DNA of 64,000 nt. Source: Bugula neritina (lineage: Eukaryota > Bryozoa > Gymnolaemata > Cheilostomatida > Bugulidae). Below the pieces are notes generated by a model. The model was given only the letters and a program-made list of their open reading frames with translations. It was not told the origin of the DNA and did not search any database. The stretch spans positions 4,277,680 to 4,341,679 of the forward strand of contig OZ037767.1 of the NCBI GenBank assembly GCA_964035545.1, read 5' to 3'. Made by a program: the position numbers and the translations under genes. Shown in pieces: positions 19,861 to 56,069 of this stretch. Each line of letters begins with the position of its first letter. Within the stretch, counting starts at the first letter, position 1.

Positions 19861-20913
19861 ATGGGGCGGTTATTCGCAAACCCCGAGTTCTACACAATTT
19901 CTAACATCACAGAAGAGGTCCCAGAGATGCATTGCTTGTCAGAGAATGTGGCTGATGCCAATAACTATGATCTAATTCATCAGTTGTATTGTCAGGTAGG
20001 AACCATAGAAGCACATGTGACTAAGAGTTTACTGTCATGTGGTGCAGGTGTGTGTGTGACATCAGTATTAAAGTTCTCCTGTTTGTGTACGTTATGAATA
20101 ATAATGTTGATGTAGTGGTTAACTGAAACTCTTGAGTATAAACAAAGTAGTAAATGGTCTGGTGGTACACATTTTAGGTTTTAGTAAAGCCTGTATGAAT
20201 ATTTAAAGTTGGTAAATTCCGTGTAAATTCTTCTACACCACCGAATAATCTGACATAAAAATATACTTTTGAAAGCACTATGATGTAATTAGGTATACAT
20301 TATGATTAGGTTCAACCATACAAATGGTTATATTATATTATAATCATAATGTGCTATTTTATTACATATTGTGTTATATGTTATTATATTTTCTCATTGT
20401 TTGTGTCTCATTATTCTGCATTATATTAGGTTTTGATACATTAAGTTTTTAATGAAAGGACTTGAAGTTTAGAAAATTGCAATGTTAAATTCTTTAAAAC
20501 TGATTTCAATCATTCAAAGTTGTATTTAATGATTAAAAGCCAATAAAATGTTAGCAGGTATTTGTACCATGTGTAAACATGGTACCACTGGCACATTTAA
20601 GTTTTTTTAGAGCTTAGGCAGTTGAAAAATAAACTTTAACTTAGAATACTACCTATTATTCAACAATGCAAGTTTTTTTCTTTTCTAAAAATAAAAATTG
20701 CTTCAACTGTTTAGTTTCACAATTTTCTTCAATACTTGTTGACAGCAAATGTGTGTTGGCTACTTTATGATATGAGAGAATAGCCGTATACCTAATACAT
20801 TGTAGTACTTAATGCTTGCAATATTTCAGAGCTTCGACATCCCAGATAAATCTTCTCACCAGTCAAACAGGAGCTCATATGTAAAGCTGAAATCAGATCA
20901 CTGGAGAAGGTGA
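19861..20913 (+). CDS. Small ANPEFY-box protein, copy 1 (72 aa, 2 exons)
   Basis: Function unknown. Exon 1 is 19861-19995 (45 codons, donor CAG|gtagga) and exon 2 is 20830-20913 (acceptor atatttcag, ends TGA). Both junctions are phase 0. The protein begins MGRLFANPEFYTISNITEEV, the motif shared with the four other copies in this window. The tail is unrelated to theirs and ends in a basic SYVKLKSDHWRR. No signal peptide or membrane segment is visible. I start at the ATG that begins the shared motif, although an in-frame ATG lies upstream at 19777. The intron (834 bp) is longer than in copies 2, 4 and 5. AATAAA is at 21326-21331. Confidence 0.75.
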
Positions 20914-21331
20914 CCGATTACAACAAATACATGTACTTGAAACACTTAGCTCAAAACTCCTAACTCATACTCGGTGGGGGACAGAGCTCACCTTACTCTT
21001 TTTTCTGCCTCTTAGTCTATTTATCTGTACATAGACATCTACCATTGTGACACATACTATTTATAACTTTCGATGCAATCCTGTAATTTAAATTGCATGT
21101 CGGTGTAGATGTATAATAATAAGTAGAGACAACCAGCTTATCTTTTGCTATCATAAGCTATACTTATCACTTATGTCTACCTCTACTTGTGAATGTATTG
21201 TATAATTATATCTGCATTCATCATACTTATTTTGCATCTTGTAATACAATCATATTTGACTAAAGGGCTAATATCTGCCCTCCTGCTGTTCATTTTGTTT
21301 ATTATATAATATAATATAGTGTGAAAATAAA

Positions 21332-22175
21332 TTAATTTTCTTGTTTATAACAAATGATATTACTTGCCACTTACACCATCATGTAGCAATTACTGTGTAC
21401 ACCTCCTTGCGCAAGTTTAGGCATGCCTACCACAACAATGTGATTAGTATATAAGGAAACCCGACACCTTACAGAGTAGGGGCTAATAACTTCTATTAGA
21501 TGTAGTGGAACTACTTATAGTATACGATAGCTGGGAAGGGGCCGTGAATAAAAAGACTATGAAGGAACTAGCATAAATGTTGCTTACATCTCACTTCTTT
21601 TTATGCATTTAAGTTCCAATAAGAAATACTAATTTGTGAGCCTAGTTGTTGATCTGTAGCTGTTCCTTAAAGCGGTCTTGTGGGGATGTTTCAGGTTGTG
21701 TAGGTTCAAGAATAAATTGAGAATTTCAATGACAACTTAGAGAGAAAGTTAGATGCTATTAAATAATCATGATAAATACAAATACAAATATTTCAACCCT
21801 GAGGTAGGTGTGGCAAATATAGAAACTGCAGCAGATACAAGATATAACAGCATATACAGTACGAAAAATTATAGCTATAGTGTCTAAAGTATACATATTT
21901 ACCTACAGTGCCTATGAGCAAGCTAGGATTACATAACTATTGCTGTAGTTACTACAACAACCACAACAGTGGTAGTGAGCATATTTATCAGGAAGGAAGT
22001 TATCTGTCCTTGAGCTAAACTAAGCTCTAAACTGCATTTGCTTGTTTTAATGGCATTTATACTCAATGTTTTGCCTTTGAAAGTGTTGATAGTTTGCAGG
22101 TCTTTTAAAATTTCTAGAGTCCAAAACTTGATTGTTGCTTAGAATACAAGGACTGCTATCAATACATAAACAATC
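21332..22175. other. Intergenic DNA, nothing recognised
   Basis: AT-rich and unique-looking. A TATATAAGG at about 21449 resembles the small-gene TATA boxes, but no member of the family follows it. Confidence 0.6.
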
Positions 22176-22275
22176 TAGCTACTACTACTACTACTAGCTA
22201 CTACTGCTACTACTACTGCTACTGCTACCACTGGAGTACTGGTAGTATTACTACTAGTAGTACTACTACTATTGC
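22176..22275. repeat. CTA/CTG trinucleotide microsatellite
   Basis: About 100 bp of CTACTACTA with CTG interruptions. The second half switches to TAGTAG orientation, so the tract can fold on itself. Confidence 0.9.
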
Positions 22276-25139
22276 TGACAGTATATAATCTATACAGTTA
22301 TAAAGTTGCTTTAGTTTTTATATTTAATTTATGTCTTCTGTTTGAAGTACTGGTTGTAAAACCACAACATAATGTTAGATATCAGGCAGCCCTAAGATCT
22401 AAACTCTAAAGTCACCAGACTTGCACTTGAGGCTTCATGATTCAATATGAGTAATAAACTTCTCTCTATGCAATTGTTGTTCATTTCTAAAGAGCAATAA
22501 TCTTGCAAAGTCACGATGCAATTCGCATATTCATTGTCACAGTGATCAGCTGGTAGTCTGCATGTTGTTATGGCAAGTCTAATCATAACCCAATGGGCTG
22601 AAAGAGTGAATCACTTTGGGAGAATTTTTATGATTATTGGGACGGCAGCTTTAAGAAGCTAGCCTTGAATGCATACCCAACTTAAGGCATCCCGGTGCTT
22701 CGCCTAGGTCACTGCTGTTCTAGCCATGTGTGAACCATATTTCGTATGAATGATAATTCTTTTGTTAGTTGAAAAAGCAATATTTCATAATTTATTGCAT
22801 ATTTGTGTAATTAAATGTGCATTTTATTGCTAGAAATTGCATAAAATCGTGCATGTGTGTACAATATGCTTCGATCAATGCAGAACTTTATCCATTTGTA
22901 AACAAGTAACGTTTGTTTATTAGTGGACAAGGTCTGAGTTTAAAACCATTCTTAGATGATAATTTAATAAAACTGATGCCGACTAGTTTCTCAAGGGGTT
23001 AGCGCTCAATAGATGTTTTATGTTTCATGTTTCTCAAATTTAATGTTTATGGAGAATCGAAGGAATTCAAGTTTAACTATTTTATTTTAAATACCTTTAA
23101 TTGTATATGAGTGCTTATAAATATGCATCATATTTTGTGTTTTTGTGCCAAGATTCTGAGAATTATAAAAGCTTTAGAGCTAGCCCTTGAGTTAATCCAC
23201 TTTATGATCTTGTTTATAATCTTATACTGTCATTCTATAATTTTCGCAGTATTTGGATTTAAAACATCATTGCTTTAAATAGTCAAAAAAGTTGCAATGC
23301 CTAAAGGCTGTCCAAATCAGATTTAAATGCATAAGCAAATCAGGGGCAAAAAATACTTGATCACCATTTTATTGCAATAATTAAGTTAATGATCACACAA
23401 CAACAGTACTTTTTGATATAGTTATGGTGATCCATATTTTCTACAGTAAATTCTAGAGGCTGCTATGCACTAATTTCAAATGGCTTATAATTTTTTAAAA
23501 CATTATTGATTGAATTTTTAACTAAAAATTTTACTTCATTGTTATAGTTTTTACTTCATAAAATCAATGCTTCTAACAGTGAAACCTTTATAAAAACTCA
23601 TACATTACTACAAAACAGCATGAAATTTAACGTTCAATAATTTATTTTTCAGTTATTTTATATTTTAGCCACATTTATATATACAGGCAGTACAGAGAAT
23701 AAGCTGTGATGCTGAAAACAATATGAATGCAATATAATATAATATAATATAATAATATAATATAATACAATATAACAATTTATAATTTATGGTATTTCTG
23801 ATATATGGCTTCGGCTGACAAAATGCAGTGTGAAAGCAGCTCATACTTGATGACTTGCAGAGCAAATTGAAAATAAGGAAACTGACCAACTGGTCAGAAT
23901 AAATTGACAGATATGACTCACTCAAGGAAACACCAACTGGAAGTTATTTTGAATGCAATATAAATATTTTCGTTTCAAAAGTTCTCATACTGAATGCAAA
24001 GTTTGGTGTGAAACATGTTTTTTTGAAAAGCAACAACCTGATGCAATTTGCTCTTTATGACTTTGTACTAGCATGATTAATTAAGCAAATATGATATAAA
24101 AGCAAACTACTTGCACAAATTGCATATTAGTCTTAAATGTCTTCAATTTCACATTAAAATTTCAAATGAATCAGCGCTGAACTGACAAAATATTTATTTC
24201 AGCATATTTACTTAAAATTTATAATTTGGTTTTAGACTAATTTTGTTTTACAGAATATTTGACTGGCTGTACAAGACAAACAATGGCAAGCGTAGTTATA
24301 AGAGAAACATTGTGTTACCCACAGTAGTTCGGTATTCTCAAAATGTGTTATTCATTCTCAAGCATCTCTAGCTTTGTTAATATAATGACCGCTTTTGTAA
24401 AACATTAACTCAAAAATGAAAGGGCTTTAGCTTGTCCATATACGTGGTAAATTCATTGCACTGAGAAACGTTCTTTAATGATTCAGATATCCTTCTGCAA
24501 GTAACCAATTCCTGTACAGATGACCATGAGTGAGTCAAGGAAAGGAATGCTGTCTCATGACCGTGAGTTGGTCCACCTACACATCTAGTTCCCTGTTCAG
24601 TAACTACGCTGCTTTGACAGCACACATCTACCTACCACACACATTGCAGCCTGCTTTTAATCATACAACTAGTCTGCTTTCAATCATCATTACTCTGTGT
24701 TCTAGATTCATAACTTTTCTGAATCATTAATTGAAACAAGTTTCTTTGCTTTTTCACTGTTTTTTGAAAAAAAAACATTTTTTAAAGCAGATAATTTTAC
24801 TAATATTTATCTATGAAATTGGACGTCAGGAGAACTGTTACATAAAGACATGGCTTTCTTCAAGGTTTTTATACACAAGAAACCCTGTGTTGATTCCAAT
24901 TATAGTATTGAATTTATTAATATATAAAAAAGACCTCACAATATCAAACTAATGTTTATTACAAATGATTAGTTTTATATACAAAAACCCGGGCTTCTTA
25001 AATTTAGTTTAAATATGATAAATTTACGTAAAGTTAGTGAGATAACAAGCCTATGATGATCTGCTCTTAACTCCAACTCCCCACTATTGTATGGCATGAT
25101 AAAACAAAGCTATTAAAAACAACAGAAAAAAATATTTGG
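22276..25139. other. AT-rich intergenic DNA
   Basis: No gene supported. It contains an (ATAAT)n pentamer microsatellite at 23728-23776. Confidence 0.65.
23728..23776. repeat. AATAT pentanucleotide microsatellite
   Basis: A run of AATAT/ATAAT units about 49 bp long with few interruptions. Confidence 0.85.
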
Positions 25140-25289
25140 TCCCATATAAAATCCAACCTCTGACCTCCACGTGGGAGGGACTAGACGGATGAAATTCTGG
25201 CCAACAAGAGGATATGGTACACGCCAGGATAGGCCTAGCAAGCCACTGGTGCTCAAAATTGCTACAAACACTTAAGGAAAATGAAATTC

Positions 25290-25590
25290 GGGATGGATAT
25301 TACGGAAACGAACCCTGGAACGGAAAAAACGGACTACGATTCGGAATACTGAACATTGGAACATATCGATAGGAGTCGGAAGAAATAGTGGAGAGTGGTA
25401 TGGTCACGTTAGATGAAGACCAACAGAGCATCCAACAATGGAAGCCCTGAATTACACAATACCAGGAACAAGATCTAGTGGTAGTCCACGAAAGAGATGG
25501 CACCAGTACATTGACGATTATTTAAAAGAGAGTAATACCAACCTGGAGAGAGTAAACGTAGAAAGATTATTTGAAAACAGACAAGTATGA
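25290..25590 (+). pseudogene. LINE reverse-transcriptase C-terminal remnant
   Basis: The frame 25387-25590 reads SGEWYGHVR, an in-frame TGA, then RPTEHPTMEALNYTIPGTRS and SGSPRKRWHQYIDDYLKESN. The pair W-(Y/F)-G-H-V-x-R and (R/S)-G-x-P-R-K-R-W-x-x-x-I is typical of the region after the reverse-transcriptase domain in non-LTR retrotransposons. Only the 3' end is present and the frame is broken, so this is a dead 5'-truncated copy. The repeat-derived DNA may start near 25140. Confidence 0.75.
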
Positions 25591-25887
25591 AAAAGCCTGA
25601 TTAACTTTTCTACCTGCATGACAGGCACTAGCCTAATTCGGAGTATAGTAAAAAGGTAAAAAGAAAAATATTTGAATATTCTCAAATTTATATATTTCGA
25701 TTAAAAAAGTTGACATATATAATTGCAGATATTTGTGACTATGTTGAGATATTTATTAGGCTTAATTACTAATTATTCCTAATGATATCTTAGCTGCAAA
25801 TAATATATACATGTCTATAAGATATGCAATTACATAATAAAAAATATTCCAAACATAATTATTTAATAATTTAATTAATATTAAAAT

Positions 25888-25980
25888 AGTAACAATGATA
25901 GTATTAGTACTGGTAATGGTGATTATAACCATAATGTTGGCTATAGTAATAGTAATAGTAATGGTAAAGGTAATAGTAAA
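25888..25980. repeat. Degenerate GTAATA/GTAATG repeat
   Basis: Short interrupted runs of AGTAAT and GGTAAT. The reverse strand translates to a meaningless I/T/M repeat. Confidence 0.7.
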
Positions 25981-26478
25981 ATTCATCAAAATTTGTCTTC
26001 ACTAAAAATTAAAATACGCTCATTTTACAGCAAGTTTTGTAAGTAAGTAAAATGAGTAACAATTCAATTTTCTCATCAAAACCATGCAATGTGTGTTTTC
26101 TTTTTTTTGATATCTCAACAGTTTTGTCATCCTATAAATCACCTTTCATATAACTTTGTTTGTTTTTCTTTAAATAATGATAGAATAAGTTCAAAAAACA
26201 AATCATATTGCTTCCTGTTTGTTTATTTGGTCAGGTAAAGTAAATAAAGTTATTGAGTTTGAAATTGGTTCACTGTGATAAACCTACGATGTCGTAATAA
26301 CAATACGATAGCATAACAATAGCGTACTCTATTACCGCACAATGAATAATCAGGGCCTGACTAGACTTGTGAGAGCGTAAGCTAGGCATTGTGGGTAGCA
26401 TAACTTCCTCGAACCACTCAACTGGAACTCACTGCTATTAATAACTATCTGGCAATGCAACATGCAGTCAGGTGTTAT

Positions 26479-26510
26479 CCAATGAGCAGACCCGCCCAAA
26501 TGTATAAAAG
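26479..26510 (+). promoter_or_regulatory. Promoter of small-gene copy 2 (CCAAT, CCGCCC, TATA)
   Basis: CCAAT at 26479-26483, a CCCGCCC box just after it and TATAAAAGG at 26503-26511, about 108 bp before the ATG. This is the cleanest core promoter in the window. Confidence 0.7.
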
Positions 26511-26610
26511 GCAGTATTTTGGACATTTTGAAGCACACAGCCTTCAAGCACAGCTGAAGAAACTTACCACATATCAAAGTTTCTGTTTCTAACACACTTC
26601 AACCACTAAA

Positions 26611-26959
26611 ATGGGAAAATTATACGCAAACAAAGAATTTTATCAGATTTCCGAGTGGACTGAAGAAGAAGCATCACAACAGGAGTTTTATTCTCAATTT
26701 ATTGTTGAAAAATCTTCAAGACCTGACTATCATGCTACACAGCCATCGACTGGAAATATTTTATTTTCAAAACCAACTTCAGCATATTTGGTAAGTATTT
26801 GCACTTGATTGACTCAAAATAATACTTTGAAATACTAGAAATAATTATGTTCTCAAATTCAGCATCTTTTTTAATTAATTGAGTTTAAAAGAATTCATTT
26901 TATTTACTAAATTATAACAATTTTAGGTTCAGACTAATTCCTACAAAGCTCTTTGCTAA
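26611..26959 (+). CDS. Small ANPEFY-box protein, copy 2 (70 aa, 2 exons)
   Basis: Function unknown. Exon 1 is 26611-26790 (60 codons, donor TTG|gtaagt) and exon 2 is 26927-26959 (acceptor acaattttag, VQTNSYKALC, TAA). The junction is phase 0 and the intron is 136 bp. The protein begins MGKLYANKEFYQISEWTEEE. The WTEEE version of the box is shared with copy 4. Exon 1 ends SAYL, like AAYL in copy 3. The tail is rich in S, T, Q and aromatic residues, with no membrane segment. A candidate poly(A) signal is AATAAA at 27446-27451. Confidence 0.8.
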
Positions 26960-27451
26960 AGAAAACAGGAAAAGTCCTACTCAAGCCAAAGACCAGCTAT
27001 TATGAGCCACACTCTGCACCACTCATAAGCCTACCTGTGATAAACCTGCTATAGTATTATCAGAACATCCGTTACTGTATTGCATCATTGCCACACCTCT
27101 ATGATATGCCAGACCTGTCAAATGTTGCCTGCCAGACCTGCTAGCTGTTAGTGTAATGATTTATATATGACAATATATTTAAGTATTATTGTTGTATTGC
27201 CTGAATTGGCATGAAATTGAGAATTAAAGCTAAAGCCAACTTCCAGTCTTACTTAACTATTATTTTTATTGCATATTGTTTGATCAAATATTTTGTAAAT
27301 TCTTATGATATAATACCATATTATATTTATTTGATACGAATACCTCCGAAAATTATTTATTTTACCCAACAGTATGTTAGACTATGCAAAAAATTTATAC
27401 TGTTTTTTAAATTATGTATTCAGCAATTACTATAACCAGTAAATCAATAAA

Positions 27452-29538
27452 TTTATGTGATACTTAATAAATAATTCTGGTGTATATATTTGTATATTTA
27501 TATTCAAATGCAATCACCAATTGATTGAATTATATTAAAAGCTGATTCTACATAAAAATATACATCAATGAGTATATACATAATTTCAAAAGTTTCTACT
27601 AGTATTGGCTGCTGAAAATTGCATATGGCAGAATTGATACCCAACAGTTATGACATTGTCATAGCAAAAGCTTTCTTTCTACTTGCCTTAAATTAATATT
27701 TTTTGTAATCAACGTGACAAAATAGAACAAGGCTGCTAAAATAGTGACGAAGTTAAGAAGGATCTTTCTCTCTGAAAGTCTATATTTCTTGAGCATTGAA
27801 TAGAAGACAACTCCCACCAAGTTGATGCTGATGCAATACGTGATGTTTCACCAGCTCTTGGAGCTACAAATAAACTCAGTGAGACTAGCATGAGCTAACC
27901 ATTAACGTCAACAACAATAACATTTTGTATCTTATCAGTAGACGTCATAACTTTTAGGTAGTTGAGCTATATTCATGATGAAACTGCATGCTGTGTAGTA
28001 TTTACAATGGGTCATGGAGTGACGAAACAACAACACGCATCATCTAAAATATAAACAATCATTGGCGTACTATTTTTTGACATACATGTAAGCTTGCCCT
28101 AGAAGCTTATATAACATTCCAGAATGTACTGGATAGATTTGCAGTCATAGATTTTCAACAAACAACTCATTTTGTAATCTAAATATTGTATTTCCAATAA
28201 ATACTCAACTGTATTGACAAATAATTTCTAATTTTCTTGCGTATAACAACAATTGATGAACAAATATGTCATCAATATTTGCACATAGTCAATATATTTA
28301 AGAGGAAGTGTTTATAACAAACAGCTATTCTCACTACAGTTTGCTGTGAGCTACACACAATAATGAAACAGCTGGTAGAAACAGTTGTTTCAACTAATCA
28401 ATGCTACGACAAAACAACTATCTACATCAGCAAGAAGCTAGTTCTCCAGTCTAAAGTTGTAGTTTACAATGACATGTTGAACACTTTTGATTGACTCATT
28501 TTTAATCTGTTAGGGCAGCAATCTTCTTTCAGTCTATGCATAATAGTGCCAAGTTGTCTTCTTTTAAAGACATGCGTATTTGGTATAACAACTTATGATA
28601 CATTTTCGGAATCCCACTATACTTGTATTAGTAAGAGAGAAGGGTAGCAGGTAAACTTTCATTCTGACCTTGTTGTGGGCGTTGTCTAATTTCGTATTTC
28701 TATATTTAGATCAACAGGTGAATATTTCTAAACATTGACAGACTGATCGATCATCAAAGATGTTGTCTGCAAGTTTGATTCATTAAAAGTCAACAAAACT
28801 TTTTTTGACCTCTTCATTTATATTTCCATTCATAGATTATATAGAAGTTGATATCTCATTTTCATTAGGGTCAGTGGAAATCATCTATTTCAATGGATTT
28901 GTGTGAGCAAAATCTTTTTTCAATAACATGCGTAGCTCAGGTTTCTAATATTTGTGAATGTATTGGTAAGAGGGGTATTGAAAACTGCCACATCTTCCTC
29001 TCCACCGTTTGAAGGCACCTCAACTATGTTAGGAATTAAAAATAATATTTACCCACCCATTTTAGGAATGAAGGGCATCAAGAGATGGGACTGATACGCG
29101 AGTGCAAATGTATTGTTGCTATTGAAAGACGTAAAACATTTATCAATGGGTGTCAAATGGGGAACCACCTACACCGCCTACTACTGTGACCAGAAGATTC
29201 AGCCAAGCGAGTTGAATTATATTTCTTCATACATCATCAGAACTTCCTTTATCACAGAATTTAACCTGCTCAGTCAACTGAAACTGATTTTAATGACAAC
29301 ATTTATAGATTAAAGCCGCAGTTTGTGACATAAAGCTAAGTAGTTGGGTAGTTACCTATATAATAATATAGTTATCAAACTAATACCTCCATATATCATC
29401 AGATATTAAAATTATTACTTGAGCACTATCCATTAGCATAACTGTAGTTTAAGTAGGCATGTACCACCACAATATCCACCACCCATGTGTTATTCATCAA
29501 ATTATATGAAGTATGCAAGTATGCGTTACCAAAGTAGA
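27452..29538. other. AT-rich intergenic DNA
   Basis: No recognised gene. One short ORF with a TATA-like element upstream (28363-28494) is discussed as a finding. Confidence 0.6.
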
Positions 29539-29640
29539 GGGAGTAGTTGTGGTCTACTGGTTAGAATATGGGCTGGTGTGGTATAGCAGGTGGTTATAGG
29601 TGGTGAGTTAGAAACCCTCCAGAGTCATTGATGATGTCAG
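29539..29640 (+). repeat. Diverged SINE relic
   Basis: GGGAGTAGTTGTGGTCTACTGGTTAGA resembles the head of the SINEs at 49933 and 32405, and TCATTGATGATGTCAGAAGGAACAT resembles their body (TTATTGGTGATGCCAGGAAGAGCAT). The B box is destroyed and the 3' end is gone. Confidence 0.5.
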
Positions 29641-32182: not shown

Positions 32183-32190
32183 TTTATAAT

Positions 32191-32405
32191 AAACTCACGC
32201 AAGTTTATAGTCACCATTCCTGTGAGAAACCCCTGATAGAAAGGGTTTTTGTTGAAGCGGGCTAAGGACTTATTTAAATGAGGCACAGGAGCAATTATGA
32301 CTGGATGCCCTCCCTAACATCACCAATGGTCTTTGTCTGGGCTCGAACCCATGGCCTTCGTGTTTACCAGGCAAACGCTCTAACCCTTAGACCACGGCTG
32401 CTCCC
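32191..32405 (-). mobile_element. tRNA-derived SINE, copy A
   Basis: On the minus strand the head reads GGGAGCAGCCGTGGTCTAAG with a B-box-like GGTTCGAGCCC (complement of 32339-32349), as in a tRNA gene promoter. The body has the same order as the 49.9-kb copy and ends in CTTGCGTGAGTTT. It is flanked by TTTATAAT at 32183-32190 and 32406-32413, a probable target-site duplication. Confidence 0.85.
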
Positions 32406-32413
32406 TTTATAAT

Positions 32414-43272: not shown

Positions 43273-43449
43273 CAAATATGCAGCAAATGCAGAACTTCTA
43301 AAGATAGCACCAGCTTGCAATATTTTAGGCTCAAACGCCCTGCTTTTTAAGCTTTCATCACCACCGATCATCACTAAATTGCCTGCAGCTACCTCTTCGC
43401 TGATGTTGTGGATCTCGTAAAACTCGGGGTTAGCGTTGATTCTGCCCAT
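43273..43449 (-). CDS. Small ANPEFY-box protein, copy 3 (exon 1, 59 codons)
   Basis: Function unknown. The protein begins MGRINANPEFYEIHNISEEV and exon 1 ends SSAFAAYL at the donor TTG|gtgagc (intron downwards from 43272), the same phase and nearly the same residues as in copy 2. Exon 2 is not settled. One option is 43023-43058 (acceptor gaatacag, KLYKIRSFFLT, TAA). Another uses ttgtttag at about 43228 and a 45-bp intron, which is very short. I start at the ATG opening the shared motif, although an in-frame ATG lies upstream at 43551. The TATA box is at 43541-43549. Confidence 0.7.
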
Positions 43450-43540
43450 CTTATCCTTTTGGTAGACTGGTTTCTTGGAAGCTTGTTTGTTGTCACTCGG
43501 CTTCAAATGAAGGTTTATAATTCGCTTTAGTTGCACTCTC

Positions 43541-43549
43541 CTTATATAC
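43541..43549 (-). promoter_or_regulatory. TATA box of small-gene copy 3
   Basis: The minus strand reads CGCGTGTATATAAGGAG, with TATATAAG about 95 bp before the ATG. A CGCGTG word just upstream is a possible E-box/N-box-like site. Confidence 0.65.
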
Positions 43550-44048
43550 ACGCGAGGTGAAAAGTTTTCTGGTGATTCTATTTTTGAATTGATTAATTAG
43601 AATATAAGATATGATAGTTACATTAACATGTAGGTGTTGTTGCGTGTTGGCCAACTTAGGTTACATGTCATGAAACACTATAATATATCATCATCTCTAA
43701 TTATTAATACACTTATGGGAGGAGGATTACATTCCCTAAGTTTTTCTGAGCTCCTGCATTTACCAGTGGAATCTAACATTTTTTAAGTAAATGCTGATTG
43801 GTCACTTTCCAACAAGTCAGGTGTTGGCCTTATATACTTCCCCAATTTTAAATGTTTATGTAACCAGCTTTAATACTTACTGTTTACATAGCCCCTATAC
43901 ATAATATGCAGTCATCATGACTTGCAGTAAACTCATTTCATCGGAAATGTCCGACAATTGGGAAAATATCTTAACTATTGTTTCATCATTAATCGTTATA
44001 GCAATAAATTTTTCGTTAGTGATTAGAGCTTATTTGTCAACACATTAA

Positions 44049-47000
44049 TTATGTAGAGATGAAATGGTATAAACCATGATGTTAATGCAATAGAGTATTA
44101 TTATGCTACTTATTCACAAAACATTTTGAACAACATTTTTTAGTATTTGTGCCAAAGTAATAGCCTTGACTATGTTGACAGTATGGTAAGAGTTGTAGTT
44201 CTGATATAGCTCCTTTAAAAACCCTTGTCATCAGGCGCTCTCACAGGAAATGGTACCTGTAAAGTTACATAAGATATAAATAAATATTTTATATCAGTTT
44301 TTAATGTAAACTTGTATGAAAGATAAGTTGTTTTCTTAAATAAGTAATTATGTTAGACATCTCTGTTATTAAAGACAAGAAAAAAGCGATCTGTAGAAAA
44401 TTATGCAACGACATTGGTTGAAGGCTGCGACCGCACGTTTTTCGTCCTTTGGCAAGAGATAGATTCCGGTTCCGTGTCAAGGATTGTGAAACCAAACCAG
44501 TCATGTTCATCTGTGCACATATTGAGAAGATCCCTGTACCAGCATATACACCTTTCAAATCATAGATATGATAATTTAGTTTGTGAACAGCTAAAGGTAT
44601 TCAGGAACTGCTATTGAGCACTTGCATAAGATATGTAAATCTAGTAACCACAAATCATCAATTTAGCATGACCTGCATACCTCATACATAACTCTCTACT
44701 TTAATAAATTCATAGATTTTTTGTGTAAATATATAATTTTTACGACAAACACCTACTGGAAAGAAAATGAGTTATTCTCACTGCATGGTTTAAGTTTATA
44801 TTATGTTATTCAGGCAAAGCATGTAGCTGAAATAGATGAATGTGTACAACTGTTTTGCAATGTGACAGCCCGGTTGTATAACCTTGAGTGCACACACACT
44901 CAGTCGCCAACACTCGCGCGCACGTAAATCACATAAAAACGAATAACAGAGAGTTTTGGCAAGTGACAGTGGCTGTATAGTACTATGCATTGTGGGTAAA
45001 ACTCAACATTGCCTGTTAAATTATCAAACTTTGATGCTTTTAGACTTGCTTATTTGTCAAAACTGCTGTAAAGTCTTGTAAAATAAAGCAAACAGCCAAA
45101 GTAAAAGCCACTGTTGTATTTTTTTATATCTCTTTACTTATACATATGAATATGCTAGCTGGGAGGGATAAAAGGCATAATTATTGAACCAAAGTGGAAA
45201 TTAATTGCAGCTGATTTTGCTTTACTATGAACATCAGTAAGGGCAGTTTTCCTCAAGCAATATGGATACAAATAAGCTGGTAATTTCTTCATTTGCATGT
45301 TGATAAACTATAAACAGTTTCAAAGTATAAAGAGTAAAAAATTTTGTCTCTATGCGCGATTTGATGGAGCAGCTGTCTGTCTAACATGTGTTACATCTTC
45401 CCATTTGAACTCAACAATGATGACATAATCAATGAAGGTTAAACATGAGGTAGCTAATTGTTTTTTTTTCGTTATATGGTCATTGACTTAACAAACAATA
45501 TGCAAATGTGCCAACAGACAGTCAATTTGTTGTGGGAAATAAAAAGCGCAGGTGACATTGGTGTGCTTCTGTGAATAGAGAATTGTGGTGTTGAAACCAG
45601 ACAGACGGATTGAGACAATTCTGGTAAAAGTTTGACCATTTAATAGTAAAAAGACTTTGTGGACAAACTTTACAGATGATTTTTGCAGTGGCTTTTTGGC
45701 AGCTTTCCAAAAATCATTGTGTAACGAAAGCTATTTGTGAAAGCTTTCGCAATAGCTATTTACTGACAGTTTTTGGTCGATGAGTCAGTGTAGCTCAGTT
45801 TTCCTCCTGCTAAAGATGCAGGCAATCTATACTTAATTGTCAAAATAATTGTAAGTATCAAGTATTATATTATCTTTTGTTTTGAACTTCATTAACTAAA
45901 TGTTTTGTCAGCTATGTAATTAATGTTAAGTTAACAATATGTTTGTAATTTTCATGGTTATAGGTTACAGTAAAGTACAAGTACAGTATGAGTACAAGTA
46001 TGAGTATGAGTGTGAGTTCAAGTGTAAGTCTATCTTAGAAAATATACTGTTGGCAATAGACAAAAAATAGAGTTGTGGCCTGCATCTGTGTCCTTCATCC
46101 ATTCACCCTTCATTAAGTGAATCACAATACAAACAGCACCCATGCTGACGAAGCAACAATTATCAGCTGATACAGTAACCATTATCGGCTGTCACAATGA
46201 TTACAACGAATTTTGTGAAAAAATTTGAAAGTTCTAGACCATTTAGTCGGGGTACGTCAGTTTTGAAGAATCTTTCGCTTACTCAGAAATATTTGAAATT
46301 ACTGAACTATCTTGTATAAAATGTTGCAAGTTTTCCAAAAACTTCTGATGACATAATCGGCATGTTTTTCATGGAAAAGTCAAAAGGCCTCAATTGTGTC
46401 ACAATTTGTTCCTACAAACCATGAAGCCATTATACTATTTTGGTTTATACAGAACGTACAACTGACTGACAAATAGCAAATTTTCTAATGCAACTAAATG
46501 TATATAATATGAATGGATAAGCAGTAATCAAACATGCCGGACATGATATTATATGCCTGCATAAACTAAACCTTGCAGTAGCCACGGAGTATACATTCTA
46601 CCAGGAAGTGTGTAGGAGTTACAGCAATATGAGTTTCTTAGGTTACACAACGTGAGGAGGTATAATTGGTCAGCTGAGCTGCATGGAACAAGTCACTGTT
46701 GAAGCTTATTCACGTGGCTGAGTGTCCTTGGATCAACCTTGCACAGGATAGGAAAGCTATTTCTGTAAACCAAATCCAAGTGTTATTGGATTAGAAGTAA
46801 TTCAATAAATATTTACTCAATTGATGGTCACTAAAGCCGAACTTACAGCTGAAGTGTTTTTTCCGTTTTCTAAATAGTGAGTATATGTAGTTTCATAGGA
46901 TAAACCCAATGTTATTAGACATCTAATTATTCTGTAGACTAATCACTAGTGACTGGTCACCAGTATATATTAAAGAGATGGTGATGACAGATGGCAAATC

Positions 47001-47600
47001 TTGCTGACAGTTTTACTTTTCTGACCAGACAAAGTTTATAATAATCACTCATAAAGTTGATGTTTTCAACTCCCAGTATAGCAGATTTATGTGATAATTA
47101 TCACCCATATCCAGTGCAAGATTGAGTTCAACATAGGATTAACGGCTACCAATAAATTATTATCACGTGTTTGTCATGTTTATTTTGTTTACAATCTCTA
47201 CAGCCTAGCATTTTAGGTGAAAATGATATCACCTTAGATTCACAATCAATTAGAATATTAAGTTCATTTATTGTTATATTCTCATATGAATAGTTCCAAT
47301 AAAACTGCACCATGGCTTTAAAATTTCTGATTTTGAAAAACGTTTGCAGCTCACCGACTTTGAAGTTTAGACTAAAGCCAATTTGTAAACAATGTGATTT
47401 ATCAACCCTCTCAGTTTTCTTTGCAAAACTGTTGAAGTTGTCTCCTCACATATTTATTTAATAAACTTTTAAAAAAATGCAACAGTGTCCTAGAAGTGCA
47501 TCTCGCACAATGTGAGTTGCTATTACAAAACATTGTGCTAGAGATGTTATTTTATGTTTCAATTTTTGTTCAGTCAACAGCAATAGTCTTTGCAATGACT
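44049..47600. other. Intergenic DNA with one exon-like island
   Basis: Mostly AT-rich. A minus-strand exon-like island lies at 44401-44533. A hexamer-type repeat (GAGTAC/GAGTAT) lies at about 45965-46030. Nothing else is supported. Confidence 0.5.
44401..44533 (-). CDS. Candidate terminal exon, unknown gene
   Basis: The minus strand has acceptor atgctggtacag and then a frame (phase 2 entry) DLLNMCTDEHDWFGFTILDT, EPESISCQRTKNVRSQPSTN, VVA and TAA. Composition is protein-like and GC-richer than the flanks. There is no partner exon with matching phase that I can prove, and other frames here are also open, so this is weak. Confidence 0.2.
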
Positions 47601-47770
47601 AGAGAAGGTAGCCTAAGAACACGGGAGCACTACCTGGCAGCACAGAGGATAGCCTAAGAACTAGAAGTTTTACCTGGCAACACAGAGGATAGCCTAAGAA
47701 CTGAAGCGCTACCGGGTAACTCAGAAAATAGCCTAAGAACAAGGAAGCTTACGCTGGAACAGGGAAGTAG
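47601..47770. repeat. About 40-bp minisatellite, four units
   Basis: Four units each begin with TAGCCTAAGAAC and carry ACCTGGCA(G/A)CACAGAG in the middle. The units diverge toward the right. It ends about 80 bp before the large palindrome. Confidence 0.85.
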
Positions 47771-47849
47771 TTTAAAAGCAAGGAGCATGAGATAAGAATG
47801 AAGAAGGTTATGACCTTCAGTGTATTGTTATCATTCACGGGCTTTCCAT

Positions 47850-49391
47850 CACCGGCTTTCCATGTACCGATCTCAGCGAGATCGATCCATGGAAAGATGT
47901 CAAAGATCGATCTCAGTCGTTCTGAGCTGGTCGGTCTGTAGAGCTCGAACTCAGATCGATCTCAGTGAGATCGATCCATGGAAAGACTCCAGATCGATCT
48001 GAGAAGTAGAAAAAGACTGTTCGCTAAAATGTTGTCCGCTGATAAAAATGATAACTTATTGATAATTACCAAGCAAATTACTTAATAATTACGATAGCCA
48101 CATTTTCAGATGCCAAAACTTTGACTTTCAGTACTATGATTAAAAAAACTCAATTATATAAAAGTATAGTCGGTAGAAATTACAAAAAATTGGAGCATTT
48201 AAATTGAATTTAAATGACTAGTAAAACTTACTTTCATTAGTTATTTGCTGCGTAATTTCAAGCCTAACAATCCTGTAAGTTTATGAATAATCTGCAAGAT
48301 AGCTATTAATTTTATTTAAGCTGTTAAGCTAAAAAATTAAAAGTTATTATCTTAAATTGGCTATATTACTTTACACTAAAAGCTTTGTTGTGTATTGTTT
48401 ACAAGCACCATTAATTTTTAGACATCAACAATCTTGTTTTTTAACCTCAGCAGCTTTAATCATCCAGATTTGTGAACAAATTATATTATTAAAGTACTCT
48501 TCACTTAAGAGGAGGCAACTCCGTGAGATCGATCTGACACTTCTCATGGAAAAACGATCGATCTGAGAGATATGTTCAGATTGATCTCAGCGAGATCGAT
48601 CTGAGATCGGTACATGGAAAGCCGGTGCATGTACCGATCTCAGATCGATCTTGCTGAGATCGATCTGAGACATGTGCTCAGATCGATCATTTTTCCATGA
48701 GAGTGTCAGATCGATCTCTCGAAGTTGCCTCCTCTTAAGTGAAGGATACTTTAAAAATATAATTTGTTTCCCTATTTGAGTGATTAAAGCTACTGCTGTT
48801 GAAAACAAGATGGTCATAGTCTAAAGTTTAATCCCAGCTATAAACTATACGCAGCAAAGCTTTCAGTGTATAGTAATTTGGCCAATTTAAAATAATTAAT
48901 TTTAATTTTTTAGCTTGACAGCTTATATAAAATTAATGGCTGTTTAGCAGATTATTAATAAACTTACAAGATTGTTAGGCTTAAAATTACAAAGAAAATA
49001 GCTAATGAATTAAGTTTTATTAGTCATTTAAAATCAATTTAAATTCTCCCATTTTTTTACCTTCTACTGCATATAATTGAGTTTTCCTAATTATTGTACT
49101 GGAAGTCAAAGTTTTGGCATCTGAAAAAGTGGCTATCATAATTATTTATTACTTTGCTTAGTAATTATCAATAAGTTATCATTTTTATTAGCAGACAACA
49201 TTGTAGCGCGCAGTCTTTTTCTACTTCTCAGATCGATCTGGCGTCTTTCCATGGTCTTATTGACATGAGATCGATCTGAGTTCGAGCTCCACAGACCGAC
49301 CAGCTCAGATCGACTGAGATCGATCTTTGGCGTCTTTCCATGGATCGATCTCGCTAAGATCGATCTGAGATCGGTACATGGAAAGCCGGTG
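47850..49391. mobile_element. 1.54-kb palindrome: two head-to-head inverted-repeat elements
   Basis: The left half (47850-48627) begins CACCGGCTTTCCATGTACCG and ends with its inverse, ATCGGTACATGGAAAGCCGGTG. The right half (48628-49391) is a near-perfect reverse complement of the left half, except that it lacks the outer CACCGGCTTTC at its inner end. The centre is near 48622. The element termini and the middle are full of AGATCGATCT words, and each half alone is bounded by inverted repeats. No ORF of a transposase type is present, so it is a non-autonomous fold-back element in a head-to-head dimer. Short ORFs inside are artefacts. Confidence 0.9.
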
Positions 49392-49932
49392 ATTAAGCAT
49401 CCTCCAAGTGCTTTGATGGTAGAATCTTATGGCCTGCAAATTAAAAATCTAATGGCATCGCCATTACATCCAGCTAGATCAGATTAGCTGACAACATTAC
49501 ACTATATATATATAACTAAATCAACAAGCACCTGCACTGGTATTGTACAGATTTCTTTTACAATACCAGAAAGAAAATCCCCTTCAGTCGTCTTTGCATA
49601 TCTTTTACTCCTATTTAGTAGCTCTCCGGTATAACTTGAATTAGTCACAGGGTCAGGTTAGTATTGGCTTCTATAAACTACGATGGTTTTTATCAGGAGC
49701 GAATAACTTCCAGTTGTAAAGGTTGACTTTATTGATAATGCAAGAGACTCGCAGGTCTTTAGGACTTGAAGCTAGCCAAGCTCTGTTTTGAATACAGAAA
49801 CATGTAAATGTGCAACAATCTAGTCATTTGAAACTAGTTTATGCAGGTATCATGTGGTTTTATATACACGTTTGGCTCATTGAGATGTAGAGTGATATGA
49901 TCTATAACATTGGAGTTATGAATACAGCAGCA

Positions 49933-50160
49933 GGGAGCAGCCGTGGTCTAGGGGTTAGAGCGTTCGCTCAGTGAACATGGGGCCATGGGGTCATGGGTTC
50001 GAGCCTGGACAAAGGTTATTGGTGATGCCAGGAAGAGCATCCAGTCATAATTGCGCCTGTGCCTTATCTAAATAAGTCCTTAGCCCGCTTTAACAAAAAC
50101 CCGTTCTATCAAGGGTTTCTCTCATGGATGGTGACTATAAACTTGCATGCGTGAGTTTTA
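49933..50160 (+). mobile_element. tRNA-derived SINE, copy B, with 13-bp target duplication
   Basis: The head is GGGAGCAGCCGTGGTCTAGG and the B box is GGTTCGAGCCT (49998-50008). The body matches copy A over its whole length and ends GCATGCGTGAGTTTTA. AGTTATGAATACA is found at 49914-49926 and again at 50165-50177, a perfect 13-bp target-site duplication, so this insertion is young. Confidence 0.92.
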
Positions 50161-50177
50161 TTGAAGTTATGAATACA

Positions 50178-51809
50178 TTGTTCTGAATGCTAAATTATTT
50201 TCCAACTATCATATTAAATCATTTTTCGAAAACAAATATTTAATGTCAACATGCATTATTTCCTCAAGCAGAAAACTTTGTGCAAATCAAGAAGAGATAA
50301 CTCCAAAAGAATTCATGTTGATGCTTATTTATACCTTGCGGCCTAGCAACAACTCAGAGTGTTATCATGAAACTGCCAAAATTACTTCTCTGTGTTTAGA
50401 TAAATTTTTAGTAAAAAGTTGAGGCCTAAACATTATAATGAGTAATAATTAACAACTATATTTATTCAATAATAAATATCATTAGTTACTTCAAACCTTT
50501 ACGAGACATTTGGAGAAAAATAAACAAATTAAGCAGCTATTATATACCGTTCATCTTCCTTTTCAGCTATATTTGGCATGTAAACTAAATGAACTCAACT
50601 AAAGCAGTAATTGTACTCTATAGTTATCTAAAGTATAAATTGCTCTCACTCCTTGTACTATACCTATGTAGTGACAGGCTTCCTGTAGAACATGGCGGGA
50701 AGAAATGAATCTATTCATGCTGCTTGGAAAAGCGACCATACTATTGGTGGGTATCATGTAAAAAAAAGCTGAGTAGAAGTACTTGCAGAAGTTAAGCATC
50801 ACCCAAAGCAATCTTCTTGACTCTACAGATTATACCATTTTCACTATCACATACTTGATATTGTTGAATATTTATTCCAAGGTTTAAAGTTGCTATTTTC
50901 AAATATTTAAAATGAAAAGATGCTCAACGTGACTTTTTATTCAACTAATAATTGATAGCAAATGCTAATGTAAACTTCATTTAAAGATGTTCAGCTTCAA
51001 AGCAAGCCTCAGAATCTACTACAGTGTCTGCGGTCTGGAGGCAGTAATAATTATATAGGTTTAGTAGAATACTGGAGGATTTGCTCTCAATCTTTCTACT
51101 TCGAAAACTTAGAGCTTTCTAGCCACAATTCAAAACGTAATCTTTTTAAATTGCCTTGCTGTGATACATTATTTACTTCTAACTAAGATCTAAACTAAAT
51201 TCACATACTGTCATTTGCATGCTGCCACTTGATCAGGGTACACAATTAAACAGTGAACATATTTCAAAGCATTTAACTTTTTGAAATACATGTAATTGTT
51301 GCTTTCTAGTGTAATAGCCATTGGGCATATATTTGGGTTTTAGAAGCAAGTTTGCTAACAAAAGAAATGAATATTATTGTTTAGTGCTGACATATTACTA
51401 TAGCTTATAATATTAATACTACGATACAATAAATATTTAAAAATTTATTACAAACTTTTTCAAACAAAACAATCTCAATATGCAATATTAAATTGATAAT
51501 TTGTTAAAACTAACAAAATAACATGCAAGTCAATGATATAGTTAAATAACGAAAACATAATAAATAGTGTATTACAGTTTAATTTAAGGTTGATCACAGA
51601 TAGGCTTTGTTCACCAGCATTTAGAAATACTCAGACTGCTGAAAGAATTTGGCCTCATTTGTTGAGTAGACAGATGCACCGGGTGTATTGGAAAACACGT
51701 CACGAGAAAGTTAAAGGGCATCTTGACGAGGGTAGTGTGCACTCTCTTCTATCTAGAAGTGATATAAATATAAATAATCCTATTTCTTGCTTTTGAGCCA
51801 AAATTACTT
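50178..51809. other. AT-rich intergenic DNA
   Basis: No gene supported. A short island at about 50690-50780 is open on both strands and lies near no clear splice site. Confidence 0.5.
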
Positions 51810-52180
51810 TCAAACACTTCTATAGAAAGCGCTTAGCATGGTGAGTTTGTATCTGTTCTGGATATCATACATACAACTATTAGCTATAATATTGAGAAAT
51901 TAATCTAAAACTCTTTCAAGGGATAAGCAACTTTCGTCTAAAAATCTATTAGGAATACTAGAAAAGAGATATTTTACTTGCTTACCAAGTGCATTGGAAG
52001 AAGATGTTCTAAGCATAATACAGTATTCCCATAAACTAAGATTCCAGAACTATTATTATTTGTTGAAGTGTTTTTGGCGAGAAATTTAGGACTGGAGCAA
52101 AGTTCTTCCCCTGCTGTTGTCTCTTCCTCAGTCCATTCAGACATTTGATAGAACTCGCTATTAGCGTAGAGTCTTCCCAT
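51810..52180 (-). CDS. Small ANPEFY-box protein, copy 4 (2 exons)
   Basis: Function unknown. Exon 1 is 51986-52180 (65 codons), starting MGRLYANSEFYQMSEWTEEE and ending LPMHL at donor TTG|gtaagc. The tail has a Ser/Asn-rich stretch and a hydrophobic VLCLEHLLPMHL. My preferred exon 2 is 51810-51857 (acceptor atatccag, NRYKLTMLSAFYRSV, TGA), because the resulting 128-bp intron matches copies 2 (136) and 5 (130) and the phase is 0. An alternative exon at 51621-51638 (QSEYF) also fits. The WTEEE box groups it with copy 2. Confidence 0.7.
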
Positions 52181-52272
52181 TATTAAGTGTTAGGATAAGT
52201 TAGTTTGATGATAGGTTATGATGTTTAGCTAAGAGTCAGTCTGCATCTGAGCTTCTAACTGCTTCACACGTC

Positions 52273-52281
52273 CTTATATAT
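52273..52281 (-). promoter_or_regulatory. TATA box of small-gene copy 4
   Basis: The minus strand reads ATGATATATAAGGACGTGTG, with TATATAAGG about 95 bp before the ATG. Confidence 0.65.
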
Positions 52282-55200
52282 CATTGAGCAGAAAGAAAGG
52301 CTGTAGTTACTTCATGACAGACTGAAATTGTCCAATCATTTAGTTGGCTCAGCCAATGCCGTCACAACTGCCCTCTTCTCTATTGTTTACCGCCCATGTA
52401 CGAGCGCGCAGGTACCTTCGTAAAAGTGTTTGATTAAAAAGTGATAAATGCAAATCCTACGCCTCCACCCAACTAAGCCGCTTGTCTTATTGGATAGAAT
52501 ATTAAAAGTATATTCGACCACTTTCCAATTACAAACAAGTAACTTCTTTCCATTTATCTGTCAAGCTGTCACAGATGAATAAGTGATATAATTTGTTGGC
52601 TGTTGCTTGTTTTTACTGCTTGGTTGCCTGCAATGGTGAAAGGTAAAACATGTGCTTATATAACTAATAACACATTTAAGAATACAGTTCTGCAGAGAAG
52701 AATTTTATTTCAAAATTGTAAGTTCATAATTGAACCAACAGGTCTATTGCTTGTTTTATCATTAGATATAGTTTATATATTATAATTTTTATTTAAAAGC
52801 TAGTGACTATATTTTAAAGGCCCGCAAACCCTTATAGGAGATAGAATAGCAATTATATCTGCTAATATAAAAGCTAAACAAACACATCTCTATAGCAACT
52901 AGAATTGTGAGCTATAGTAAAGTAGGCCAATGTTTTGTATCAGTTCTGTACTCAAGATGTAACTCTAATTAATTTTCTTTAAAAAAAGCTGCTTGCTAAC
53001 TAAAAATTAAACTGATAAACTATGTTTTATCAGAAAAAAAACACTTTTCTGTTAAATCACAAGATATTTAATGCATATTGACATATATCCATGACCACCT
53101 ATGTATATACCAAAACACTGACAAAAGGAGAAAATTTAAGAGTGCATTTGTGTTATATTTTTTGCCTAAGAGGTGTTGATTTGATTAGTTTCTTAGCAGT
53201 AACTCAGACAGCAGAAGTGGTCTGAGCACTTTCTGTACCAGAAGCTTCACAGACGGCTATTTTAAGTTAACCAGTTAAAATAACACTCATCTGTAAATCA
53301 ATCAGCTAATAAAGAGAACTTTCATGGACGTTGGTGTTGCAAGAGTAACAGCTAACGAAAAAAGAGGGAACTACTAATACTTTTACAGATATAATAAAAA
53401 TTATTTTAAATACAGTGCTTTTCAAAGGAGTAAATATATCAAAAACTCTTAATATGTTCTACAAGTCTATTATTAAGCAGTGGATACAAATATTTAAATA
53501 AATTCATCAAAGATTGCTTATCTTATTAAATTTAAAACGTACTTTCTGTAGTGATAATACAGAAAAAACTATATACAAGTTCACATTCCTAAGACATTCA
53601 CAAATCTGGCTATTTTAGAAGGCTTCTAATACCCAACACGTGTTTGTAATATTGCTCTAAACAACATGGTCAACTGTACTTCAAACCAAGGTCCTGACCC
53701 CAATATAAGAAATATAGCAACACCATGAATTTTTTATAGCTAAGAGAATGAAGATCAAACCGCTTTTAGCGTAATGAATTGTAAAATGATTTGTACCAAG
53801 CAGAATATATATAGCATGAAGTCATTAAAAATCAACAAGCGCTTCCTCCGGTAGTTTCTTTCTTGGCACAACTAGAAATAAAAATAAAATCGAGATGGAA
53901 AAACACTCCTACAGTTTTTAACATGGACATATCCGCTAATTTGTTATGATTTATAATAAAAACAGTTTTAAAATTAAGACACTTCCTAGGTTTAGGTAGT
54001 GTTGATTAAAAACTCATTATTCAAAGCCTCCACACACCTGGGTGGGCAGGTTGATCAGCTCATGTAGGTGTCAACTCATGACCATTATACCTCATGAGGT
54101 CTGCTATCAGTATATTTAGTATGCTAGTAACACGTGTTTTTACTAGCCACATGTTCAAATATATCTCTTGCCAAGTGTTTACTTCAAATTATAAACATAG
54201 TTAGTCATTCATTCCTATGCAATCAATCACACGCTTTCAATGAAAAAGTGATATATTATAATCATGTTCTGGCTTAGGAGTTTACAATAATATTGCTTCC
54301 ATGTCGTGGCTCGAATGAAAATACACTGATTCAGGTTATATTTATTTTACCAGCTGGTAATGTGCTTCTAAAAATAATTTGGAATTGCTCAATAATGACA
54401 CGACAGTTTCTGTCATAGCATCACCAGTTACAAAATGGCGACTGGGATTGAAATTTATGACGAGGGTAGGTAATACCACTGGAGCCAACTGCCAGTGCTT
54501 CCTCCTGCATGGCCAAAAACAATGCCGTTGGCAATCACTCAACATACCAACATGTACATGTTTGCTTAGTTAATGCAGCTGATTCAGCCACACGTGTGAA
54601 CAGAACTGTCCGTTGTCCACGCTCACTTTGATTGCACAATTCAGACTAGTATCGACTGGTTTTACTTCTGCATGCTTTGGCTATTACACACAGCCAGTTT
54701 GTGTAAAGGCTTGAGAAAAGATAGAAACTCTCTACTGTTTTAATCAAGGTTGCTGCACAGTTATGTCATAAGCAAAGTCAATTCACGGACTGAATAGGAT
54801 TGATGAATAACTTCCTGTATAATAATTATATGTTTATTGTATAATTTCTAACGAAAAAAGTGTAGATTTTTTTTAAAACTGATTCAGATATTTAATAATA
54901 AACTGATTTTATTCTGTAATCAATTGCTTAAATTAAAATTATTCCCATCATGTCTTTTTTCGTCATAGATATTTATTAATAAAATTCTATAAAAACTTTT
55001 AAACTTCTATTTTCGCATTCTATTACTTAATTCTACTTTGATAGTTGACATTACTTATTTTAATATAATACTGCATCATCACAGCCTCTACATATTTAGT
55101 AATATGAAGCACACGCACAAGCTAAATTTGGGGCAAACATAAGGTGTTCATTTATTGAAGTAAAAAGTAGTTATGAGCATTATGTGTGGGCAATTGACTC

Positions 55201-55598
55201 TTAATCTCAAGTACCTTAATTTAATTTTGGGCCCACAGTGGACTTGATAAGAAATCTAGTTGCATACACACTGCTGGTCTAAAAGCCTGACATTGATTTT
55301 ACTAGAATACACTGCTTCCTGATTATGCAATCAATTAACCAAAGGAGGGAATGCTGTTTGCTCTGCACTGAACGGAAGGAATCTATATATAGCCCAGTGT
55401 CCTTGTGCTGTTACTTCACAATTAAATTACAGCTTTCCATCCGGCACTCCCTTCAACATAACCAAAATTTCATTAGTCTTTTGCTAAATTTACCAATAAT
55501 TTTTAGCATATGAGACCTGCACACATTTTCCATGCCAACGGCTTAATTATACAAACTGTTCTATTAATCATCTTTCAAGCGACACAGTCAGTTACTGG
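52282..55598. other. Intergenic DNA with one exon-like island
   Basis: AT-rich apart from about 54380-54720. A weak minus-strand exon candidate is given separately. No other support. Confidence 0.5.
54421..54504 (-). CDS. Candidate exon, unknown gene
   Basis: On the minus strand, acceptor ttggccatgcag is followed by EEALAVGSSGITYPRHKFQS and QSPFCNW, then TGA. A plus-strand frame is also open here. Weak. Confidence 0.15.
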   Translation of the reverse strand, partial: EEALAVGSSGITYPRHKFQSQSPFCNW

Positions 55599-55606
55599 TA
55601 TATAAG
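55599..55606 (+). promoter_or_regulatory. TATA box of small-gene copy 5
   Basis: TATATAAG lies 107 bp before the ATG, as in copies 3 and 4. Confidence 0.65.
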
Positions 55607-55705
55607 TTAGGGAAGTCCTCCTCGTCACGAACACTGTAAAGCCAACCATTGCAAGAGTCAGAGCAAATTAAACTAAGAATAAGAGAATTTATTTTTTCAG
55701 TGATT

Positions 55706-56069
55706 ATGGGTCGCCTCTTTGCCAACCCGGAATTTTATGAAATCTCAGCTATAACTGAGGAAGAAACAGTCTTGAAATCTTGTTTGGAAAACTTCAGCCA
55801 GTTGAATCAACACGGAAATTATTTAAATAACTTCTCAATGGTAAGTCTGTCTTCATTCATTAGCAACAGATTTGCATACTGAAATCAACCTTTCTTCTTT
55901 TATAGAAGAAATTATAAAATGCTGAAAGACATACGTTACTTAGTAAATTTATCCAGCTATTTGCTTTTAGGTATTTCCTAATGAAAGTAACACAGTGATG
56001 GAGTGTCAACAGTATAACAGAACTGGAGGAACAGTAGATACCATCAGAGTACTCAGTTTATCTAACTAA
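55706..56069 (+). CDS. Small ANPEFY-box protein, copy 5 (77 aa, 2 exons)
   Basis: Function unknown. Exon 1 is 55706-55840 (45 codons, donor ATG|gtaagt) and exon 2 is 55971-56069 (acceptor ttgcttttag, VFPNESNTVMECQQYNRTGG and so on, TAA). Phase 0, intron 130 bp. It begins MGRLFANPEFYEISAITEEE, the best match to the family consensus, and exon 1 has exactly the length of copy 1. The tail is Asn/Ser-rich with no membrane segment. An upstream in-frame ATG at 55649 exists, but the shared motif and TATA spacing favour this start. Confidence 0.8.

Follow-up and report, generated by a model that had tools for sequence, protein, structure and literature searches.

Do five small open reading frames scattered over chromosome 3 of the bryozoan Bugula neritina form a genuine gene family, and what could the proteins that they encode be doing? 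An initial annotation of a 64,000-nucleotide stretch of this chromosome (C3:4,277,680-4,341,679; hereafter the window) had proposed five genes, starting at 19861 and 26611 on the plus strand, at 43449 and 52180 on the minus strand and at 55706 on the plus strand, with the common N-terminal box M-G-(R/K)-(L/I)-x-A-N-x-E-F-Y-x-(I/M)-x-x-(I/W)-(T/S)-E-E. We verified all five start codons, strands and boxes in the sequence, the box being present in 5/5, and refer to the genes as g1 to g5. Families without known relatives are often written off as annotation noise, and the box is a defined peptide for partner-binding tests in a phylum where molecular genetics is little developed.

Results

Five gene predictions and their promoters

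The five genes lie within one 36-kb stretch, and each opens with an exon that carries the box; the relatives named here are proteins P0006 to P0012, described below. Exon 1 of g1 (19861..19995, plus strand; box 19861-19920; relative P0010) has 45 codons and a phase-0 donor, GTAGGA, and its exon 2 (20830..20913, plus strand; acceptor TTTCAG), similar to the P0010 end, adds 27 codons and TGA to give a protein of 72 aa. In g2, the first exon (26611..26790, plus strand; box 26611-26670; relative P0006) runs for 60 codons to a phase-0 donor, GTAAGT, and the second (26927..26959, plus strand; 10 codons and TAA) matches the P0006 end and completes a 70-aa protein. Exon 1 of g3 (43273..43449, minus strand; box 43390-43449; relative P0007) spans 59 codons before a putative phase-0 donor, GTGAGC; a second exon was looked for in the window and not found, and the protein has at least 59 aa. 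The g4 gene begins with 65 codons (51986..52180, minus strand; box 52121-52180; relatives P0009 and P0011) and a phase-0 donor, GTAAGC, followed by an exon 2 (51611..51748, minus strand) of about 45 codons and TGA, its first codons uncertain, for a protein of about 110 aa. This second exon was placed by the P0011 tail, which aligns to 51,736-51,590 of the minus strand with a score of 176, no other place in the window scoring above 42. At 51590-51616 a TGA closes the g4 frame at a point where P0011 stays open, and the two remain similar for about 7 codons more. Finally, g5 consists of a 45-codon exon 1 (55706..55840, plus strand; box 55706-55765; phase-0 donor GTAAGT; relative P0008) and a putative exon 2 (55971..56069, plus strand; acceptor TTTTAG; 32 codons and TAA), giving 77 aa.

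First exons thus measure 135, 180, 177, 195 and 135 bases in g1 to g5, all in phase 0 before GT. The shared splice phase of the initial annotation therefore holds in 5/5, the g3 and g5 donors being read from sequence only; exon 2 is backed by relatives in g1, g2 and g4 and is a sequence reading in g5. The proposed size of about 70-80 aa suits g1, g2 and g5 (70-77 aa) but not g4, at about 110 aa, and for g3 a minimum of 59 aa can be given.

A common promoter spacing had also been proposed, and this held for four genes. TATA boxes matching TATA[AT]A[AG] stand at -99 to -108 in 4/5: TATAAAA at -108 of g2 (26503..26509, plus strand), TATATAA at -99 of g3 (43542..43548, minus strand), TATATAA at -100 of g4 (52274..52280, minus strand) and TATATAA at -107 of g5 (55599..55605, plus strand). 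The exception is g1, with only a weak TATA-like TATAAC at -126 (19735..19740, plus strand). The chance of a TATA box in 4/5 is about 1.6e-7 for one fixed 10-base slot, and the real figure is higher because the slot was picked after the data were seen. The 250 bases upstream share three 6-mers in 4/5 genes and no 7- or 8-mer in 4/5. Among other transcription-factor sites, none was common to all five 800-base upstream stretches beyond background rate.

The box was found in one cluster of the genome

The initial annotation judged the five boxes unlikely to agree by chance. Consistent with this, when the whole 216-Mb assembly (215.85 Mb) was searched with a 25-residue g5 box, five places came back, g5 itself and the other four genes (E 4.2e-4, 0.0055, 0.033 and 0.073; 5/5 candidates scored). 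This search scores only the best candidates, so very diverged genomic copies may be missed. Longer single queries gave the same picture (P0001, 4 places; P0002, 3 places; every one a family member), P0001 being a g1 query that extends five codons into the g1 intron. Searched in frame without mismatches, the pattern MG-x4-N-x-[ED]-F-[YF] occurs at 7 places in the genome (reversed control, 0), namely g1-g5 and two others that read MGPVA[SL]NTDFF and from which the remainder of the box is absent. The shorter AN-x-EFY has 42 places (control, 14), and MG plus three residues precede it only in g1-g5. A box profile run over the window found g1-g5 at E ≤ 1.7e-15 and nothing else below 0.48; this profile was built from g1-g5 themselves and three relatives, and the single g5-box genome search is the fair test. 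With five copies in 36 kb, none further found genome-wide and no family match, the proposal of paralogues in a lineage-specific cluster is supported.

Each gene has a relative in protein data

Seven relatives, P0006-P0012, were recovered from 5.8 billion proteins (candidates passing: 5/6, 6/25 and 7/242). Because this search matches on short exact words within a length limit, distant protein relatives may be missed. All five genes have a relative: P0010 for g1, P0006 for g2, P0009 for g4 and P0008 for g5, while P0007 fits g3. Three relatives are published B. neritina gene models (EB796_024198, EB796_024199 and EB796_025084, the last being P0011). P0010 (72 aa) and P0006 (70 aa), both full-length models, have consecutive locus tags, each listing a 121,882-base contig. 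For P0008 and P0009 the longest contig listed measures 9,724 bases in each case, a length that would agree with the 3.5-kb spacing of g4 and g5 here. At their ends, P0007, P0008 and P0009 probably read into intron sequence. P0009 is identical to g4 exon 1 at 61/65 residues and P0011 at just 55/65, so P0011 may be a further copy and not g4 itself. The 2020 B. neritina draft derives from the S genotype, from Virginia, and carries AUGUSTUS models made with transcriptome hints (PMC7576161), which is some indirect support for transcripts. The literature searched, which for the most part did not include subscription papers, yielded no mention of the EB796 locus tags and, within work on the Bugula genome or on lineage-specific genes, no description of the family.

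The seventh relative, P0012 (E 8.1e-8; 149 aa, 97 of them preceding the box methionine), comes from a 607-base contig in ENA and is more distant. Its box keeps 12-16/20 residues (16/20 identical to g1 and g5), and its tail is unrelated to all five, 10-88% of shuffled tails reaching its scores. P0012 had no part in defining the family, and its best five matches in the genome are g1-g5 (E 9.3e-5 to 0.024). Judging from the protein letters, the V-Y-K that precedes its box in frame may be the translation of a TATA box at -101, and its terminal Q-V-G-I-L may mark a phase-0 donor following the Q, the arrangement seen in g1. All named relatives in the protein searches are from Bugula neritina; P0012 suggests that the lineage carrying the family may be wider than this species.

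Beyond g1-g5, the P0012 search returned a sixth match (E 0.12), a look-alike without MG, and then matches at E 1.1 and 8.7. The look-alike (C3:9,145,6xx; L103:263-481) has no MG start and lies inside a DNA repeat of five genomic places, one frame of which happens to read GRLFVNAEFYSIS by chance; this repeat probably represents a copia RNase H read on its antisense strand.

An old box held by selection, with divergent tails

Nine residues are invariant in 5/5 boxes (M1, G2, A6, N7, E9, F10, Y11, E18 and E19); the same nine are invariant in an 11-row alignment (A4) of g1-g5 and six relatives and, by eye, in P0012. Residue 3 is Arg in 4/5 window boxes. Across the 20 codons of the box, pN/pS was 0.09-0.39 in 10/10 pairs (pS 0.81-1.30; pN 0.10-0.32). 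Synonymous divergence is saturated and pN is low, which makes the duplication old, with the protein sequence held by selection. By pN the closest boxes are g2 and g4 (0.10; common S-E-W-T-E-E-E), then g1 and g5 (0.14), and g3 is nearest g1 (0.19). Box DNA identity of 58-75% excludes a recent tandem repeat. The sequence comparisons thus mark g1-g5 as an old family that purifying selection maintains, rather than as a recent repeat or a transposon peptide. That five paralogues, their relatives and one more distant copy share 20 residues despite saturated pS is strong evidence, at the level of sequence, that the box does something.

Among the paralogues, the conserved positions cluster in the box and the tails are dissimilar. 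From gene to relative the tails are kept, at 29/39 to 24/26 residues after the box.

No known domain family is recognised

The initial annotation could name no known family, and our searches bore this out: nothing passed a curated cut-off of Pfam-A or NCBIfam, and no PDB match fell below E 1. In Pfam-A, 0/5 window proteins and 0/10 A3 members scored above cut-off (best, TFIIF_beta in g5, 15.9 bits vs 23). For NCBIfam, which comprises bacterial and archaeal families, the count was again 0/10 (best, MobP1, 14.9 bits vs 200). A profile search of PDB sequences gave one match, to the CFAP58 coiled coil at profile positions 12-37 (E 1.7), taken as chance, and two boxes searched alone gave 0 matches up to E 10. 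A model of P0006, the g2 relative, contained no structure (mean pLDDT 54.6, best over the first 20 residues); built from 10 short sequences, this low-confidence model is weak evidence of disorder. The five proteins (g3, exon 1 only) contain no strongly hydrophobic stretch, the highest Kyte-Doolittle mean over 19 residues being 1.19, in g4.

The cluster lies in a gene-poor stretch

The left end of the window is occupied by an APC gene, recognised by two APC repeats on the plus strand (295-534 and 2640-3131), and this neighbour could anchor synteny. Pfam matches nothing in the long open reading frames that reach 14.7 kb (11648-12778 and 13565-14707), which are presumably part of the APC gene. 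About 8 kb to the right of the window, one of three L095 open reading frames scanned carries a COMM_HN domain (L095:7927-8100, minus strand). A Pfam scan of 148/156 open reading frames from 15 kb to the window end showed no convincing domain, and no genes other than g1-g5 were recognised in this gene-poor stretch; weak single matches to Humanin, OB_RRP5 and WSK (E 0.0025-0.0032) were taken as chance, and further small genes in the window may have been missed. Rfam and tRNA scans of the whole window were empty, and GC content is 30-35% from 16 kb onward.

Between g3 and g4 lies a 1.5-kb foldback element (47848-49393) with nested inverted repeats, rich in GATCGATC words, the longer arms of which are 82-95% complementary. 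Copies of a dispersed repeat, GGGAGCAGCCGTGGTCTAG..., stand at 32193-32406, 49932-50152 and 59595-59634; we take this repeat to be tRNA-SINE-like.

Discussion

Five predicted genes encode small proteins with one shared 20-residue N-terminal box and divergent tails, and none passes a cut-off in Pfam-A or NCBIfam. We propose that they are disordered docking peptides in which the box binds one partner, most likely a PTB-domain adaptor, and the tails provide separate outputs; we put the probability of this full reading at roughly one in three. That they are docking peptides in general we consider fairly probable, as suggested by a box that is kept while the tails change, the lack of a domain and of a strongly hydrophobic stretch, and the structureless P0006 model. 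With no strongly hydrophobic stretch, the five proteins would act inside the cell. The box would be a partner-binding motif for one partner common to all five, its aromatic-x-N-x-x-F core would bind the PTB-domain adaptor, each tail would give its own copy a separate output, and the promoters may allow different cells to switch on different copies. Tails that are unlike between paralogues yet kept in relatives could also mean five different functions.

A PTB-type adaptor as the partner is our best but weak guess, drawn from the motif pattern. The ELM pattern for phosphate-independent PTB ligands matches 5/5 window boxes, 10/11 once relatives are counted, and 4.6% of shuffled boxes; this pattern was the best of seven tried, and the eleven boxes, being related to one another, are not independent trials. 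In g3, residue 5 is non-aromatic and residue 8 is P and the pattern still matches; P0011 (W5, I8) does not match. PTB binding accounts for N7, F10 and residue 5 and leaves M1-G2, Y11 and E18-E19 unexplained. The eh1, NPF, YxxPhi, NxxN and classical myristoylation patterns match no box among the eleven, and a Groucho eh1 motif (0/11) was rejected.

The invariant M1 and G2 raise a different possibility, namely that the start is a membrane anchor, N-myristoylated, with the first seven residues working like the N-terminus of ARF1. Human ARF1 starts MGNIFAN, which MG[RK][LI][FY]AN of the boxes resembles, the two agreeing as MG-x-[IL]-[FY]-A-N across seven residues. However, the classical myristoylation pattern, PROSITE PS00008, excludes R or K at position 3 and fails at G2 in 11/11 boxes. 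The five proteins also differ from ARF1 in having no GTPase domain and a basic residue 3, and no further similarity was seen. About a dozen human NMT substrates with Lys at position 3 exist, but Arg, the residue of 4/5 boxes, does not appear among the substrates in the available part of that study (PMC7048800); the available parts of a Sortase A paper (PMC6317481) and a myristoylome paper (PMC4200515) hold nothing on residue 3. Ten ARF-like places were found in Bugula and four inspected, and the three readable starts (MGVAFTK, MGNIINS and MGFLFSK) include no MG..FAN. The MG..FAN pattern itself occurs at five places in the genome, g1, g5 and three that stop after 7, 19 and 31 codons. Derivation of the box from an ARF first exon was rejected, the three readable starts being different, and we regard the anchor as unlikely.

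It is rather improbable that E-F-Y-x-I of the box is an ATG8-binding LIR motif, which would make the proteins selective-autophagy adaptors. Every box carries E9 and F10, followed by I, L or M at position 13, and the LIR pattern matches 4/5 window boxes and 10/11 with relatives; yet it also matches 28% of shuffled boxes, and g4 carries M13.

Small clustered proteins with little conservation and TATA-driven genes also recall the Bearded complex, whose members would be small Notch-pathway antagonists of Neuralized, a very improbable identity here. NxxN, the Neuralized-binding motif, occurs in 0/11 boxes of 23 residues, the Su(H) site YGTGRGAA in 0/5 upstream stretches of 800 bases, and a bHLH or Orange domain in none of the 148/156 open reading frames scanned between 15 kb and the window end; with these three tests failed, a Bearded/Notch complex was rejected. 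The P0006 model, a poor one, contains no helix of four residues, and the hydrophobic moment of box residues 8-20 as an amphipathic helix is reached by 7-72% of shuffles. By eye, the g5 tail contains N-Y-L-N. Lastly, a transposon-encoded or repeat-derived peptide is scarcely credible: repeats are present in the region, but the box is found at five places genome-wide, in a single 36-kb cluster, and not the hundreds of times that the initial annotation had envisaged for a transposon peptide.

For docking peptides with a PTB-type partner, the closest known parallels are sorting signals. Dab2, Numb and ARH have in common a PTB domain for cargo, NPXY being bound by Dab2 and the NPXF of the LDL receptor by Dab2 and ARH (PMC7759532). 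The FxNPxY/NPxF signals that these adaptors read share an aromatic-x-N-P-x-F core with g1 and g5, and g2, g3 and g4 have variants of it; such signals sit in receptor tails, whereas the putative motif here begins at residue 5, in tiny proteins that show no evident membrane span. As a long shot, g1-g5 may be a switchable microprotein complex that evolved in bryozoans, whose N-terminal NPxF-like boxes compete against receptors for binding to PTB endocytic adaptors and whose tails determine the place and time of action of each copy. If true, another phylum would have its own counterpart to the Bearded complex of insects. Like the Bearded-class genes of the arthropod Enhancer of split complex, g1-g5 are clustered and encode small proteins with weak conservation outside a short motif; unlike them, they carry another motif, in a box without NxxN, with no Su(H)-type sites and no bHLH-Orange neighbours found.
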